NCBI GenBank assembly: GCA_017509565.1
Contig: JAFWPM010000311.1
Coordinates: 1 to 38,407, forward strand
Direction of reading: 5' to 3'
Source of the DNA: Kiritimatiellia bacterium
Lineage (GTDB): Bacteria; Verrucomicrobiota; Kiritimatiellia; RFP12; JAAYLN01
Length of the DNA: 38,407 nucleotides
Below are positions 17,410-33,188 of the stretch, one piece after another. How positions within the stretch are numbered: position 1 is the first letter of the stretch; each line of letters starts with the position of its first letter. A program made the position numbers and the translations under genes. Below the pieces are notes generated by a model, which was not told the DNA's origin, did not search any database, and saw nothing but the letters and a program-made list of their open reading frames with translations.

Positions 17410-18885
17410 ATGCCAATTTCCCAGTCCGACATTGAACGAAAACTTGATCCGCCAGCCCCCGCGCGGGGACATCGGCCTCTCCTTAGGGTTGGCGTGCTGA
17501 CTGACATCCACATCACCCCGCCAGAGACCGGCGACGAATGGTACGTGAAGGCGCTGCGGCGTTTCGACGCCGAGCGCGTCGACGCCGTGCTCGTCGCCGG
17601 CGACCTCACCACCTGGTCGCGCCGCTTCGAGTTCGAGGCCGCCGCCGCCGCCTGGCGCAAGGTCTTCCCGGAAGACCGCCGCTCCGACGGCGCCAGGGTC
17701 GAACGCGTCTTCATCGCCGGCAACCACGACGTCGACGGTTTCTTCTACCCCGACGGCAAGTTCGCCTCGAAGGAGGAGGCCCTGCGCGAGAGTTTCTTCT
17801 ACCACCGCGACGAGTGGTGGCGCGAGCTTTTCGGCGAGCCCTACGAGCCGGCCGTGATCAAGGTCGTCAAGGGGTACGCCTTCGTTCTCGTGAACTGGTG
17901 GTCGCGCGCCCCGTCCGTGTACGCCACGAACCCGCCCCGCTTCCCGCTCGCGGCGGACGTCCCGCCCGAGGAGAACCCCGCCCCGGCCTTCCTCGAAAAG
18001 ATCGAGGCGCAACTGCCGGCCGACAAGCCGTTCTTCTTCGTCCAGCACGAGCCCCTCAAGGGCACGGTCTGCCAGTGCGACCCCGACGCCGCGCTCGACG
18101 CCACCGGCGCGATTCTCGCCCGCCACCCGAACTGCATCGCCATCACCGGCCACATGCACTACCCGCTCACCGACGAGCGCTCGATCTGGCAGCGGGAGTT
18201 CACCGCCGTCAACGCCTCGTGCGCCCGCGGTTTCTGCTTCTCCTTCCCCGGCCGCGAAAACGGCCACTCGGTGACGGACTACCACCGCGACCCGCCCTTT
18301 GAGATGGACCGTTTCGACATCCAGGCCGTGCGCCAGGGCTTGACGATGGACGTCTTCCCCGACCGCGTCGTCTTCAAGCGCTTCGACATCGTCTCCGACG
18401 AATCGCTCGGCGAAGACTGGGTCGTCGCGCCGCCGCGGCGCGACGTCGCGCCGCGCTATTCCTTCGCCTCCCGCGCCGCCGCGTCGCGCCCGCCGCGCTT
18501 TCCCGCCGGCGCGGCCGTCTCCGTCCGCGAAATCGACGACGGCCACCGCCGCACGGAGCTCGGCAACGCCCTCGACCCCGCGCCGCGCCGCCAGGTGGTC
18601 GTGTCATTCCAGACCGCGCCTGCCACGGCGGACTCGGACCGCGCCCTCGATTTCTCCGTGACGGCCGAGCTGCGCATCCAGGACATGGCGCAGGCCGTGC
18701 AGGAAAAGCGCGTCTATTCGCCACGCTTCTGGGGTGCCGAAGCCTCCGACACCGGCCCGGTCGAATGCGCCTTCGCCATGGAAAACCTGCCCAAGAAGCG
18801 CGAAATCCGCTTCGTCGTGCGCCCGGTCAACAACTGGGGCAAGGCGGGCGAGCCAATCGCAAGCGAATGGAGAAAATTCGAATGA
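17410..18885 (+). CDS. Calcineurin-like metallophosphoesterase
   Basis: The 491-residue protein has the five blocks of this superfamily: LTDIHI, VAGDLT, AGNHDVD, VQHEP and GHMHYP, spread through about residues 30 to 255, which would bind two metal ions and cleave a phosphate ester. The last 90 residues (from VSFQTAP) look like a beta-rich accessory domain. No signal peptide is visible. A frame upstream to 17248 is open but overlaps the promoter, so the ATG at 17410 is used. Its stop overlaps the next gene start (ATGA). Its place at the head of a glycan locus suggests action on a phosphorylated sugar or nucleotide; the true substrate is unknown. Confidence 0.85.
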   Translation: MPISQSDIERKLDPPAPARGHRPLLRVGVLTDIHITPPETGDEWYVKALRRFDAERVDAVLVAGDLTTWSRRFEFEAAAAAWRKVFPEDRRSDGARVERVFIAGNHDVDGFFYPDGKFASKEEALRESFFYHRDEWWRELFGEPYEPAVIKVVKGYAFVLVNWWSRAPSVYATNPPRFPLAADVPPEENPAPAFLEKIEAQLPADKPFFFVQHEPLKGTVCQCDPDAALDATGAILARHPNCIAITGHMHYPLTDERSIWQREFTAVNASCARGFCFSFPGRENGHSVTDYHRDPPFEMDRFDIQAVRQGLTMDVFPDRVVFKRFDIVSDESLGEDWVVAPPRRDVAPRYSFASRAAASRPPRFPAGAAVSVREIDDGHRRTELGNALDPAPRRQVVVSFQTAPATADSDRALDFSVTAELRIQDMAQAVQEKRVYSPRFWGAEASDTGPVECAFAMENLPKKREIRFVVRPVNNWGKAGEPIASEWRKFE

Positions 18886-21143
18886 AGACGTTCGCGTTCA
18901 CGGCATTCCTGCTCTTCGCCTCGTTCGCCGGGGCGCAGGGGACGTTCTTCCGCGTGGAGTCCGACCCTGCCGGCACCGACTGGTTCGTGGCGCCCGACGG
19001 CAGCCGACTTTTCTCCGTCGGCGTCTGCCACGTCCACCCGCACGGATCCTACAGCCACGCCCTGAAGTACTCGCCGTACAAGCGCTTCGTCGAGGAGAAC
19101 TACCCGTCGCTCGACGCCTGGGCCGGCGAAACGGCCGCGCGCCTCCGCGACTGGGGCTTCACTTCCCTCGGCGCGGCCAGCGACATCGCCCTCCTCGCCG
19201 GCCGCGGGTTCCCGCACGTCTCCCATTCCGCCTTGCGCATGGGCCAGAATTTCGCGACCGCCGAACCGGAGCGTTCGATCTGCCCCTCGAAGGGCGCGCC
19301 CTGCACGGCGCTTCCCAACGTCTTCCACCCCGATTTCCCGGCATTCTGCGACAAGATCGCGGCAGAACGCTGCGCCGCCGCGAAGGACGACCCCAACCTC
19401 ATCGGCTGGTACATCGACAACGAACTCGCCTGGTGGGGCCAGAACAGCCAGCGCACGTCAGGCGCGACCGGCGTCTTCGACGCGATCATGGAATTCCCTC
19501 CCGAGCACAGCGCACGCATTGAGCTCGAAAAATGGCTGGCGGAATTTAACGCAGAGGCGCAGAGCCGCCGAGAAACGCAGAGCGGAAATCCGGCAAATAC
19601 GACTCAAAACACTTCACATATTGGCAATCTCCGCGACAACTCTGCGTCTCTGCGTCTCTGCGTTGAATCCTTTCCCGTCGCCGTCAAAGTCGCATTTCTG
19701 CGGCATTTCGCGCGCACCTACTTCGAGATCACGACCGCCGCGATCCGCCGCCACGATCCGAACCACCTGATTCTGGGCTGCCGCTTCGCCGGTCTCGTCG
19801 GCGCGCATCCCGTGGTGTGGGAGGAGGCGGGCCGCTTCTGCGACGTCGTCTCCTTCAACTGCTACCCGTGGGCGGATCTCGACCACGGCGTCGTCCTCGA
19901 CGAAAAGTGCGGTGTCCCGATGGCCGAGCGCTTCGCCGAATACCACGGCTACGCAAAGAGGCCGATGATCGTCTCGGAGTGGAGCTTCCCGGCGCTCGAC
20001 ACCGGCCGTCCGTGTTTCAAGGGCGCTGGGCAGCGCGTTCCAACGCAGGCAGAGCGCGCCGAGGCGTCGGCGCTCTTCCTGCGCACGATGCTCGCGCAGC
20101 CGTTCGTCGTGGGGTGCGAATACTTCATGTGGTGCGACCGGCCGGCGCAGGGTGCGGGAAAGGCCAACGCCGAGGACTGCAACTACGGTCTCGTGAACGA
20201 GGAAAACGTCCCCTACGACCAGTTGCTCGCGGCAATTTCGCCGCTTCTACACGATGCGGCGACACTGCGTCATGAGGTCGCGATGCCCGAGACGCAACTA
20301 CAAGCGGACAACAGCAAGCCCTCCGAGCGCGAGCGCTACTTCGCCGAAGCGGCGGCGAGTGTCGCCTCCAATACGGGTTTTGTCGCCGGGGCACCGTCCC
20401 GGGCGGTTGCTTGCTTCACGCGCGGGGCCGACGACTCGTGGACGCTCTCCAATGCCTTCGTGCGCGTTTCCGGGCGCATCGGCTCGCAATATGCCGCTGA
20501 TGAAATCGCCTTCGGCGGCAGGGCCGTCGGGCGCATCGGCGCGATGCTCCAGCTCGTGGAGAACGGCTCCAACGTCTGGATCGACGCGGAGCGCGCCACC
20601 GCCGTTGCGCCCGCCACGGACGCAGCGACTGGCATCGTCTCCGTCACGGCCCGTACCGAGGCGGCAGGCCGGTTCGCCGTGTCCTTGCGGCTTTCGCTCG
20701 CCCCGGTCGCGCGCGACCTGCTCGCCGAAATCGTTTCGGTGGAAAACCTTGGCGGCGAACCGATCGTCGCATGGCTGCCGTTCCTGCGCACGTGGTCGCT
20801 CGAAGAAAGGCCCGTCGCGGTGCCGATGGTCCTCGACCGTTGGGGCGTCCCCTGCGAAGCGCAGTGGCGGCTTCCAGGAGGCGGCGTGTGGGGCGTGGAG
20901 TCCTCCGATCCCTCGGCCAAGCGCTTCCGCTTCTTCGTCGATCCGCGCGGCGGCCAGCACCCGGACATCAGGTTCGCGCCAATGGCGCCGCGCGCCCCGT
21001 ACCCGGCCGCCGACGCTGCGGCGCAATCGCCGGTTCTTCCCCGCCACCCCTCGCCGCCGATTCCGACGGGATCGGTCTGGACTCCCTCTGTGCCTACCGG
21101 GGCGCGAATCTACTGCAAGCCAGCCGCCGGAGGTGCCGAATGA
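18882..21143 (+). CDS. Secreted clan GH-A glycosidase, beta-agarase (GH50)-like, with in-frame palindromic insert
   Basis: The 753-residue protein starts with a signal peptide (MKTFAFTAFLLFASFAGAQG). The barrel holds GWYIDNELAW with likely acid/base E181, and VSEWSF with likely nucleophile E366, a pattern shared with agarase-like GH50 and GH42-type enzymes. A C-terminal beta-rich domain starts near residue 480. It is a paralogue of the gene at 31068. Compared with it, a segment after LAEF is about 29 residues longer and is encoded by a 117-base inverted-repeat element (19548-19664). The ATG overlaps the previous stop and the stop overlaps the next ATG. Family assignment is by motif resemblance only; the substrate may be agar-like or another galactan. 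Confidence 0.7.
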   Translation: MKTFAFTAFLLFASFAGAQGTFFRVESDPAGTDWFVAPDGSRLFSVGVCHVHPHGSYSHALKYSPYKRFVEENYPSLDAWAGETAARLRDWGFTSLGAASDIALLAGRGFPHVSHSALRMGQNFATAEPERSICPSKGAPCTALPNVFHPDFPAFCDKIAAERCAAAKDDPNLIGWYIDNELAWWGQNSQRTSGATGVFDAIMEFPPEHSARIELEKWLAEFNAEAQSRRETQSGNPANTTQNTSHIGNLRDNSASLRLCVESFPVAVKVAFLRHFARTYFEITTAAIRRHDPNHLILGCRFAGLVGAHPVVWEEAGRFCDVVSFNCYPWADLDHGVVLDEKCGVPMAERFAEYHGYAKRPMIVSEWSFPALDTGRPCFKGAGQRVPTQAERAEASALFLRTMLAQPFVVGCEYFMWCDRPAQGAGKANAEDCNYGLVNEENVPYDQLLAAISPLLHDAATLRHEVAMPETQLQADNSKPSERERYFAEAAASVASNTGFVAGAPSRAVACFTRGADDSWTLSNAFVRVSGRIGSQYAADEIAFGGRAVGRIGAMLQLVENGSNVWIDAERATAVAPATDAATGIVSVTARTEAAGRFAVSLRLSLAPVARDLLAEIVSVENLGGEPIVAWLPFLRTWSLEERPVAVPMVLDRWGVPCEAQWRLPGGGVWGVESSDPSAKRFRFFVDPRGGQHPDIRFAPMAPRAPYPAADAAAQSPVLPRHPSPPIPTGSVWTPSVPTGARIYCKPAAGGAE
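19548..19664 (+). repeat. Palindromic repeat element inserted in frame in the agarase-like gene
   Basis: The left arm AACGCAGAGGCGCAGAG (19548-19564) is an inverted copy of the right end (19648-19664) with one mismatch, and the right arm repeats CTCTGCGT three times from 19640. The whole is 117 bases, exactly 39 codons, so the frame is kept. Composition and codon use differ from the gene around it. Confidence 0.8.
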
Positions 21144-25994: not shown

Positions 25995-26965
25995 AAATAT
26001 CACGAACTGTCTCTATAACGGGCGTCCCCAAGCCGGCGCACCGGATGTTCTTCGGCACGGCGATTCCCGCGATGCTGGAGGGAGGAGACGCAAACTCCCT
26101 CCTTTCAGCCGCCGTGGACGCCGGCTTCAACGCCATCGACACTGCGCGCGGGTACGCCCGGGCCGAGGAGTCGATCGCCAAGTGGCTGAAGGCGGCGCCT
26201 GGCAACCGCGACCGCATCGTCCTCCTCACGAAGTGCTGCGACATGTTCGGCGACCGCACCCAAAAGGTCGTGACCGCCGAGCGCATCCGCAAGGAGATGG
26301 ACGAGTCGCTGCGCACCCTCGGCACCGACCACGTGGATGTCTTCCTCCTGCACCGCGACGACCCGACGCACCCCGTTTCAGAATACGTCGAGACGCTGGA
26401 GGCACTGCGCCGCGAGGGCAAGTGCCTCTCCTACGGCGGCAGCAACTGGACGCACTCCCGGCTCGCGGAAGCCAACGCCTACGCCGCCGCCCACGGCTGC
26501 CAGGGCATGACGCTCTCCTCGCCGCACTACGGCCTCGCCGAGCAGGTGCGCGACCCCTGGGGAGGAGACTGCGTGACCGCGACCGGCGCGGCCATGGCCG
26601 ACGCCCGCGCGTGGTATCGCGAAACCCGAATGCCACTGCTCGCCTACTCCTCGCTCGGGCGCGGCTTCTTCTCCGGCGCCTTCAAGGCCGCCGACCTCGA
26701 CGGCGCGAAGCGCGTGCTCGACGACGTCGCGCAGCGCGGCTATCTCTGCGATGCCAACCTGAAGCGCCTCGCACGCGCCGAGGAGATCGCCGCCGCCCAC
26801 GGCGTCCACGTCGCGACCGTCGCGATGGCCTACCTCCTCACGGACGAGATGAACACGCTCGCCGTCGTCAGCATGCCGCAGCCCGAACTTCTCCAAGCCA
26901 ACCTCAAGGTCTTCGATTTCGAATTCGCCCCCGGCGAACGCGAAAGCCTGTCTGCGATCCAATAA
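25991..26965 (+). CDS. Aldo/keto reductase
   Basis: The 324-residue protein has the AKR tetrad in order: Asp and Tyr in AIDTARGYARAEES, Lys in LLTKCC, and His in FLLHRDDP. GGSNWTHSRL and AVVSMPQPELLQANLKVFDF are the usual cofactor-side segments. It would reduce or oxidise a sugar carbonyl with NADP(H). Coupled to the sialidase-like gene by an ATGA overlap, it probably works on a released monosaccharide. Its stop codon overlaps the first bases of the repeat element at 26964. Confidence 0.92.
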   Translation: MKISRTVSITGVPKPAHRMFFGTAIPAMLEGGDANSLLSAAVDAGFNAIDTARGYARAEESIAKWLKAAPGNRDRIVLLTKCCDMFGDRTQKVVTAERIRKEMDESLRTLGTDHVDVFLLHRDDPTHPVSEYVETLEALRREGKCLSYGGSNWTHSRLAEANAYAAAHGCQGMTLSSPHYGLAEQVRDPWGGDCVTATGAAMADARAWYRETRMPLLAYSSLGRGFFSGAFKAADLDGAKRVLDDVAQRGYLCDANLKRLARAEEIAAAHGVHVATVAMAYLLTDEMNTLAVVSMPQPELLQANLKVFDFEFAPGERESLSAIQ

Positions 26966-27100
26966 TGTTGCCAATATCCATTTTGCAGCCACAGAGAACA
27001 CAAAGGAACACAAAGACTTTGTGAACTCTGTGTCCTTTGTGGCTAAAAGCAATTGGCAGCTGGCATTGGTAATTGGCAACATTTTCACATTGGCAACATT
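26964..27100 (+). repeat. Nested MITE-like palindromic element between genes
   Basis: AATGTTGCCAAT (26964-26975) is inverted at ATTGGCAACATT (27072-27083) and again at 27089-27100. Inside is a second palindrome of 58 bases (26987-27044), AGCCACAGAG... to ...CTTTGTGGCT, with roughly 24 of 29 positions paired. The segment is much lower in GC than its neighbours. The remaining gap to 27147 continues AT-rich without a gene. Confidence 0.75.
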
Positions 27101-27147
27101 GTTCCTTGTTCCCTTTGCGTCCTTTGCGGCAAAAATAAAAGAAAATC

Positions 27148-31067: not shown

Positions 31068-33188
31068 ATGCACAGAATCGTACTCGTCCTGTCCGCCCTT
31101 GCGGCGGCGGCCGCCTCCGCCGCGACAACCGGCTTCTGGCACGTCGAGAAGATCGACGGCCGCGACTGGGCGATTGCCCCGGACGGGCGGCCCACGGTGC
31201 TCGCGGGCGTCGATTGGGTCTGGCCCGCCGGATTCCACTGCGAGGCGCTGGGCTACTCGCCCTACGGGCGTTTCGTCGAGACGAACTACCCCTCCCGCGA
31301 AGCGTGGGCCGACGAAACGGCGGACCGCCTCCATTCCTGGGGCTTCAATTTCCTCGGCTCCGGCTGCGACAACGCGCTTCTTTCGCCGCGCGGCTTTGCC
31401 CACGCCGTAATGCTCAACACGGGCTACCGCCTCGCGCATGACAAGGACAAGGAAAAGGCCATCTCCCCAGGCCTCAACCGCCCCGGCACCGCCTTCCCCA
31501 ACGTCTTCCACCCCGACTTCGAGGCGGCGTGGGATCTCGCCGCCGCCCGCGCCGCGGAGAAATACCGCGACGACCCGAATCTTCTCGGCTACTACCTCGA
31601 CAACGAGCTCTCCTGGGCCGCCGGAATGGGCGACCGCGAAAACGGCATGTTCGACGCCGTCGCAGCCCTGCCTCCGGAACACAGCGCGCGAAAGGCGCTG
31701 GATGCCTTCCTGGCGGAATGGGCTGAAGCCCACCACAAGAGTATTGTGGAGGCGGCCCCGTCCGCCTCCGTGAAGGTTGCCTTCCTGTCCTTCGTGGCGG
31801 AGCGTTACTTTTCCGTGGCGGCCGCGGCGGTCCGGCGCCACGACCCGAACCACATGGTGCTCGGCTGCCGCTTCGCCGGCATCGGCGCGCACGAGGAGGT
31901 GCTCAAGGCGGCCGCCCGCCACTGCGACATCGTCACCTTCAACCTCTACCCATGGGCCGATCTCGACCGCGGCATCGTCCTCACCCGCAAGGACGGACCC
32001 CCCGTCGCCGACGTCCTCACCGACTTCCACGACAAGGTCGGCGCTCCTCTCCTCATCACCGAGTGGAGCTTTTCCGCGCTGGACACTGGGCGCCCCTGTT
32101 CCGATGGCGCCGGCCAGCGCTTCCGCACCCAGGCCGAGCGCGTGGAAGCGGCGGAGATGTTCGCCCGGACGCTCCTGTCGCTCCCCTTCATGGTCGGCCA
32201 CGCCTGGTTCATGTGGGTTGACCAGCCGGCCCTCGGCTTCAACAAGTATTTCCACGAGGACTGCAACTACGGCCTCGTGAGCGAGGAGGGCGTGCCCTAC
32301 GCCGCCCTCACGGAGATGTTCGCGCGGGTGCACGCCGAGGCGGGAAAGTGGCGGATTGAGCCGCATTGTTCACAAATGGCAAATGCCACAAATGTTCACA
32401 CATCGACAATGACAATTCCCGAATCTTCCGAGCGCGAAAAGTTCTTCGATGCCGCTCGTAAGAGTTTTGTCGCAGGGGCACCGTCCCCGGCGGACGCGGT
32501 CGCCTTCCATCAGGAAGCCGACGGCGCATGGTCCCTCTCCAACGGCCTCGTCCGCCTTTCGGGCCGTATCGGCTCCTCCTCGATGGTCGAGGAGGTCGCG
32601 CGCGACGGGCGCGTGCATGGCCGCTGCAACGCGCTCGTCATGACGACGGCGCCGGACTGGCCGCCCGTCACGCGGCTCGTCTCCGCCACGCCTCAAGAGG
32701 CGCCCGGCGGTTGCCGTTCGGTCGTGCTGGTGGGGGAAGGAGGCGAAGCGGCCCGGACTGAGGCGACCCTTCCCGTAAAAGGCCCGGCCTTCGCCATCGC
32801 GATCCGCCTCACGCTTGCGCCGTCTTCCCCCGACATTCTCGCGGAAATCCTCTCCGTGCGGAATCTCGGCGCAACGCCGCTCTCGGTCCAGAAGCTCTTC
32901 CTGTGCCCATTCGCGGCGGGCGACGCGCCGCCGGAGCGGGTGCCCATGCCAGTCAACGTCTGGAAAGGGTGGAACGAATCCTGGTGGCGTCTTGCGGACG
33001 GCGCGCGCTACGGCGCGGTCTCGCACGACGAAAGCGCCGACGGCTTCAACCTCTGGACCGAAGCCGACGGCCGCCAGCATGCGGACATCCCGTTCCGCCC
33101 GCTGGCGAATCCCGTCACGCTCGCCCCGGGCGAAACACTCCAGGCCCCGCGTCCGATGTCGGCGCTTCTGCGCTGCATCGCCGAGTGA
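31068..33188 (+). CDS. Secreted agarase (GH50)-like glycosidase, paralogue of the 18882 gene
   Basis: The 706-residue protein has a signal peptide (IVLVLSALAAAAASA) and the same domain order as the earlier paralogue. GYYLDNELSW gives likely acid/base E180 and LITEWSF likely nucleophile E332. Shared segments include VFHPDF, PPEHSA, RRHDPNH, LGCRFAG, PWADLD and LDTGRPC. It lacks the 117-base insert, but at the same place holds CCACAAGAGTATTGTGG, a short palindrome. A low-GC patch (about 32365-32420) codes for a stretch between the barrel and the C-terminal domain. The ATG at 31068 follows the CE7 stop by 14 bases. It is the last gene of the locus. Confidence 0.75.
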   Translation: MHRIVLVLSALAAAAASAATTGFWHVEKIDGRDWAIAPDGRPTVLAGVDWVWPAGFHCEALGYSPYGRFVETNYPSREAWADETADRLHSWGFNFLGSGCDNALLSPRGFAHAVMLNTGYRLAHDKDKEKAISPGLNRPGTAFPNVFHPDFEAAWDLAAARAAEKYRDDPNLLGYYLDNELSWAAGMGDRENGMFDAVAALPPEHSARKALDAFLAEWAEAHHKSIVEAAPSASVKVAFLSFVAERYFSVAAAAVRRHDPNHMVLGCRFAGIGAHEEVLKAAARHCDIVTFNLYPWADLDRGIVLTRKDGPPVADVLTDFHDKVGAPLLITEWSFSALDTGRPCSDGAGQRFRTQAERVEAAEMFARTLLSLPFMVGHAWFMWVDQPALGFNKYFHEDCNYGLVSEEGVPYAALTEMFARVHAEAGKWRIEPHCSQMANATNVHTSTMTIPESSEREKFFDAARKSFVAGAPSPADAVAFHQEADGAWSLSNGLVRLSGRIGSSSMVEEVARDGRVHGRCNALVMTTAPDWPPVTRLVSATPQEAPGGCRSVVLVGEGGEAARTEATLPVKGPAFAIAIRLTLAPSSPDILAEILSVRNLGATPLSVQKLFLCPFAAGDAPPERVPMPVNVWKGWNESWWRLADGARYGAVSHDESADGFNLWTEADGRQHADIPFRPLANPVTLAPGETLQAPRPMSALLRCIAE

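Follow-up and report, generated by a model that had tools for sequence, protein, structure and literature searches.

Palindromic repeats that lie in frame within protein-coding genes are already known from Rickettsia, Wolbachia and Opitutus. The palindromic elements of Rickettsia (RPE) and Wolbachia (WPE) are 100-150 bp in length, comprise several families, and are found both in intergenic regions and in frame within unrelated genes, where the encoded peptide is tolerated (PMC2229807, PMC10969869). REP sequences with a GTAG/CGTC tag are present in frame in Opitutus terrae (Verrucomicrobia), in Rickettsia conorii and in the recB gene of Xanthomonas, in which different REPs occupy about the same site (PMC3733652). 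Bacterial MITEs with open frames (Correia/NEMIS, ERIC/RU-1 and YPAL) are small, non-autonomous stem-loop elements that are fused in frame, and the Correia elements occur as a short coding-compatible form of 107 bp and a longer stop-containing form of 155 bp that differ in their locations (PMC2229807). The coding palindromes of Nematomorpha mitochondria also consist of inverted repeats within translated genes, but these palindromes are perfect, are under active maintenance and do not occur as dispersed repeats (PMC6649704).

We examined a 38,407-nucleotide stretch of DNA (the window) from a rumen Kiritimatiellae MAG, referred to here as the own genome (G000); the data throughout are metagenome assemblies. 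The window carries on its forward strand a gene (18882..21143, ATG at 18882) for a secreted, 753-residue GH50-like glycosidase with an exo-beta-agarase fold. A Pfam search with the 753-residue protein gave no match, and an AlphaFold model based on a 34-sequence alignment (pLDDT 85, pTM 0.85) returned GH50 agarases as the best PDB matches in Foldseek (E 3e-22). An earlier note, made from the sequence alone, had described an in-frame element with terminal inverted arms at 19548..19664 of this gene, and the sequence, the reading frame and the hairpin agree with that description. This core begins 222 codons into the gene, (19548-18882)/3, and is 117 nt or 39 codons long, and its terminal 9-base arms, AACGCAGAG/CTCTGCGTT, are an exact inverted match. 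The full palindrome on the forward strand is 125 bp (19544..19668), with 29-nt arms that are 86% complementary and are built on the octamer ACGCAGAG: the 5' arm (19544..19572) consists of the units ACGCAGAG GCGCAGAG CCGCCGAG and the 3' arm (19640..19668) of CTCTGCGT CTCTGCGT CTCTGCGTT. Its hairpin has a folding energy of -53.1 kcal/mol vs -30.2 +/- 3.3 in shuffles (z = -6.9), and none of 200 shuffles folded as well. The octamer arms are open in all six frames, yet this is estimated to hold for roughly half of random octamers and was therefore set aside as evidence. We designate this element F1a, of the octamer-arm family F1; in length and folding it resembles an RPE.

Peptides encoded by the inserts include ETQSGNPANTTQNTSHIGNLR. 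Structure prediction, which the earlier note had proposed as a check for a surface loop, places residues 231-260 in a low-confidence stretch (pLDDT 48-68) flanked by two long helices predicted with confidence, with surroundings in the 80s-90s, as expected if the insert is a disordered surface loop. The loop is probably translated without harm. The strong mRNA hairpin and a precedent in Magnusiomyces mitochondria (PMC6649704) might instead point to an insert that is transcribed and then skipped by translational bypassing, or spliced out. This is very unlikely, since bypassing would not require in-frame, stop-free inserts, yet each insert observed in genes is both in frame and free of stops, and an Rfam search of the window gave no match and hence no intron-type family.

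Comparison with related genes identifies the element as an insertion. A paralogous GH50-like gene in the same window (31068..33188, forward strand, 706 aa) is 48% identical to the host glycosidase and lacks the element; the alignment gives it 29 residues fewer at this site, in accord with the earlier note. In the nearest orthologues of the host gene (L102 and L103, at 65% identity), short loops of unrelated sequence take the place of the element, which is not a conserved protein part in these relatives, and orthologues of the paralogue in other genomes have other palindromes in the same loop. Throughout the GH50-like family the loop at this site varies in length (alignment of about 70 homologues). 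For the window gene, neither a target-site duplication nor an exact empty site was readable, because the loop itself is variable. The own genome contains 24 matches to the GH50-like protein, representing a large family expansion. The variable loop length would also suit a normal, rapidly evolving protein loop with DNA that merely happens to be palindromic, a reading that is scarcely credible given the hairpin z of -6.9; it is contradicted as well by dispersed copies of the same DNA between genes and by the confinement of palindromes to two loops of CTP synthase described below.

In the own genome, a 15-base arm pattern with up to 2 mismatches gave 108 matches vs 44 for the reversed control, and a strict two-arm pattern gave 6 places vs 0 control matches. 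A genome search of this kind had been suggested in the earlier note, and it shows that arm copies recur both between genes and in frame within genes; neither of the two outcomes that the note named as refuting was observed. Intergenic copies of this and the other repeat families were found at L038, L041, L046, L048, L057, L062 and position 26987 of the window, and in-frame copies at L036, L201, L044, L066, L069 and L273; this dispersal over intergenic sites and unrelated genes is a further likeness to RPE. Most intergenic F1 copies belong to a form, F1b, that consists of a ~170 bp unit with a common long core and outer ends. The F1b unit, CATTGTCATCCCATGTAATGATCAACGC...GCGTTAAAATACTTGTGGGACGC, is MITE-like and contains stops (L035, L036, L041, L043, L046, L048, L057 and L062); none was seen within a gene, and no target duplication was read at its copies. 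The in-gene forms, F1a (the window and L036), have a different core. The terminal inverted repeats and the differing locations of F1a and F1b parallel the MITEs and the two Correia forms, with the difference that no target duplication or donor transposase was identified here, in a donor search that was not systematic.

F1 and at least four further types of palindromic repeat, with unrelated arm sequences, are found in frame in many genes of rumen Kiritimatiellales, including those for GH50, GH5, XylR-like regulators, GltB and CTP synthase. The other types are represented by CACAGAG (F2), ACAAAGG (F3), ACAGGATT (F4) and CACGAAA (F5); F3 elements, at 54-68 bp, are shorter than the window palindrome and the RPE. 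The in-gene census covered 0.9 Mb, about a third of the own genome, together with pattern scans, and strict patterns across the phylum sample detected F1 in 8 of 388 genomes and F3 in 9 of 388. Searches of a plasmid collection for F3 and of a phage collection for the window element found neither, and viral contigs searched for the F3 pattern gave none. One viral contig (L288, 6275-6368) has an F1-like two-arm palindrome. A literature search with the arm sequences found no paper, and one for these families in Kiritimatiellae, with subscription papers mostly outside it, found no description.

The earlier note had also linked the window element to an intergenic element near 27085 through a shared motif. 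The evidence does not support this motif as a link, as the match between 19613 and 27084 occurs in one instance and includes a two-base gap, and TTCACATATTGGCAA occurs once and TTCACATTGGCAA twice in 1.07 Mb of the own genome. Near 27085 it is ATTGGCAACATT that is truly repeated, and this string flanks a palindrome at 26987..27044 (forward strand), AGCCACAGAGAACACAAAGG...CCTTTGTGGCT. This palindrome belongs to F3, a family different from F1 that is also in frame in GH50, GH5, XylR-like, ManA-like and PyrG genes, and it lies within a composite repeat (26964..27103, forward strand) with direct copies of ATTGGCAACATT at 27072-27083 and 27089-27100 and an inverted copy at 26964-26980. Pairing the two places was nevertheless apt, because F3 sits in the same loop in orthologues of the 31068 paralogue.

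The GH50 loop is occupied by different families in different relatives. Loop DNA from the alignment of about 70 homologues contains F1 in the window gene and L096, F3 in L073, L074, L075 and L112, and F2 in L114 and L137, and short tandem repeats take the place of palindromes in L072 and L128. In the GH50-like family, 8 of 19 inverted repeats fall in the loop, which represents 4.4% of codons (p = 7e-7, with related genes treated as independent). Tandem GGCAATCGAC-like units, a further repeat type, occur in these same GH50-like and PyrG loops in L072, L128, L245 and L261. Other genes show a similar pattern. F1 is in frame in a GDPD-GH5 protein of the own genome (L036), and F3 lies at the same GH5 junction in a GH5-phosphoesterase (L201). 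F3 is also present in a XylR-type regulator (L069) and in the same linker of a second one (L273), and in two copies in a mannose-6-phosphate-isomerase-like protein (L066, named by eye, with no Pfam match); F2 is in frame in a glycosidase-like protein (L044, also with no Pfam match). Relatives carry F3-type inserts in glutamate synthase (L214) and CTP synthase (L212 and L227), and the family domains of all three are complete despite the inserts, two of which in GltB lie inside a full-length GATase_2 domain. In an uncharacterised secreted protein common to four genomes (L269-L272; G000:C178, G018:C220, G022:C47 and G050:C114), an F3 palindrome is in frame right after the signal peptide, with the junction sequence AAGEDF[SHKEHKEHKDF...]ADNFTLPPGARIEG. 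Because relatives carry several unrelated repeats in the same few loops, these loops serve as sites at which palindromic repeats land again and again.

CTP synthase provides the clearest case. Among 30 orthologues, length variation is mostly confined to two loops, located before DGILVPGGFG and before SERHRHRYE, whose counterparts in solved structures are short. The first loop holds F2, F3, F4, an F1/F2 mixture and others, the second F3, F4, F5 and others, and in several genomes the loops are empty. The two loops comprise 10% of codons and contain all 18 of the inverted repeats scoring >=14 (p = 1.5e-18, with related genes treated as independent). A tree computed with the loops left out has L242, with an empty second loop, as sister to L238 and L239, which carry different families at the first loop; L250 and L265 differ as well. 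Support for the deep branches of this tree is poor, and so no event count is given. The pyrG gene of G036 (L268, ~2375 and ~2740) is frameshifted; it was considered as a broken insertion and rejected, as the shifts are short tandem duplications, probably assembly errors, rather than an element. The recurrence of several families in the same loops of one protein, with turnover between close orthologues, differs from RPE and WPE, as does the host, a Kiritimatiellae MAG of another phylum; RPE were compared by description. The Rickettsia-type reading in the earlier note is thus right in kind (palindromic, dispersed and in frame) and too narrow, since several families share the loops.

These shared sites might reflect DNA history instead of protein tolerance, either through target preference or through an element-for-element exchange in which palindromes replace or join palindromes in loops by recombination. 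The first CTP synthase loop is occupied by different families in the close orthologues L238 and L239 (identity about 93%), half-arms remain in L242, L248 and L265, and palindromes are nested in L137 and in the 26964-27103 composite, and these features favor exchange. So do elements that are identical where their flanks differ. Between regulators L069 and L233, none of 19 element codons differ vs 118 of 331 flanking codons (p 0.0006; p 0.005 for synonymous changes alone), and in the C178 protein none of 19 differ vs 42 of 149 (p 0.004), both comparisons having been picked after the fact. Such identity would not be expected from a simple, old insertion, and recombination between copies, recent transfer or a DNA-level constraint are possible causes because protein selection spares synonymous changes. 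Against exchange, the sites are alike at the protein level across unrelated genes (loops, domain linkers and the post-signal-peptide position of L269-L272), and L238/L239 carry an element at the second CTP synthase site, where their sister L242 has none. We consider target preference or exchange a possible but not a probable account of the shared sites. A stronger form, in which families continually replace each other, copies are kept identical in DNA by recombination and the same surface loops of essential enzymes are constantly rewritten with stop-free repeat sequence, is doubtful.

The palindromes could also be REP- or BIME-like sequences moved by REP-associated tyrosine transposases (RAYT). 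The own genome has 7 Y1_Tnp genes and most relatives have them too, and in-frame REPs are documented in genes, foremost in Opitutus terrae (PMC3733652), so that the presence of palindromes in frame in housekeeping genes is shared with a member of the Verrucomicrobia. However, the arms here consist of 8- to 10-base units, inspection of individual copies revealed no GTAG/CGTC tag at the stem base, and no RAYT link was found: the seven Y1_Tnp loci of the own genome are flanked by repeats of other kinds, GAAGGGAGACACCCTTC and AAAGGGACAG, or by none. Repeats of these kinds accompany the Y1 transposase genes at L162 and L165 (GAAGGGAGACACCCTTC) and at L163, L164 and L166 (AAAGGGACAG). As the flanking repeats differ from F1-F5, RAYT genes were rejected as the mover, and this origin appears unlikely.

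The highly probable explanation is that non-autonomous palindromic repeats insert widely and that, in genes, only in-frame, stop-free copies in tolerant loops or linkers persist and are translated. The F1a repeat, a member of the set of five or more unrelated types that spread through rumen Kiritimatiellales genomes, has inserted in frame in a flexible loop of the secreted glycosidase and would be translated as a mostly disordered surface loop. Insertions would hit many places, and those in genes would last only where the frame, the absence of stops and a tolerant loop or domain linker permit, so that the same few sites are filled repeatedly by different types. Selection on the protein, rather than target choice, probably accounts for the shared sites, and the repeats may be selfish or neutral, filtered by protein tolerance. 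The survival of in-frame copies only is partly a detection effect, because gene-breaking copies would appear intergenic here. T-runs precede and A-runs follow the stems (TTTTTAGCC...GGCTAAAAA; ATTTAACGC...GCGTTGAAT), a polarity that is wrong for an intrinsic terminator on either strand, and terminator prediction called none at the stems; the wrong polarity may help the stems survive within genes.

With these findings, protein-coding palindromes change from an oddity of Rickettsia into a regular trait of an entire rumen lineage, in which the same enzyme loops are filled by unrelated repeats in different relatives, a situation at which earlier cases only hinted. For CTP synthase, glutamate synthase and glycosidases, they amount to an insertion scan performed by nature that marks loops accepting 20-40 extra residues, and they allow one to test whether protein selection or DNA target choice decides the survival of small repeats.
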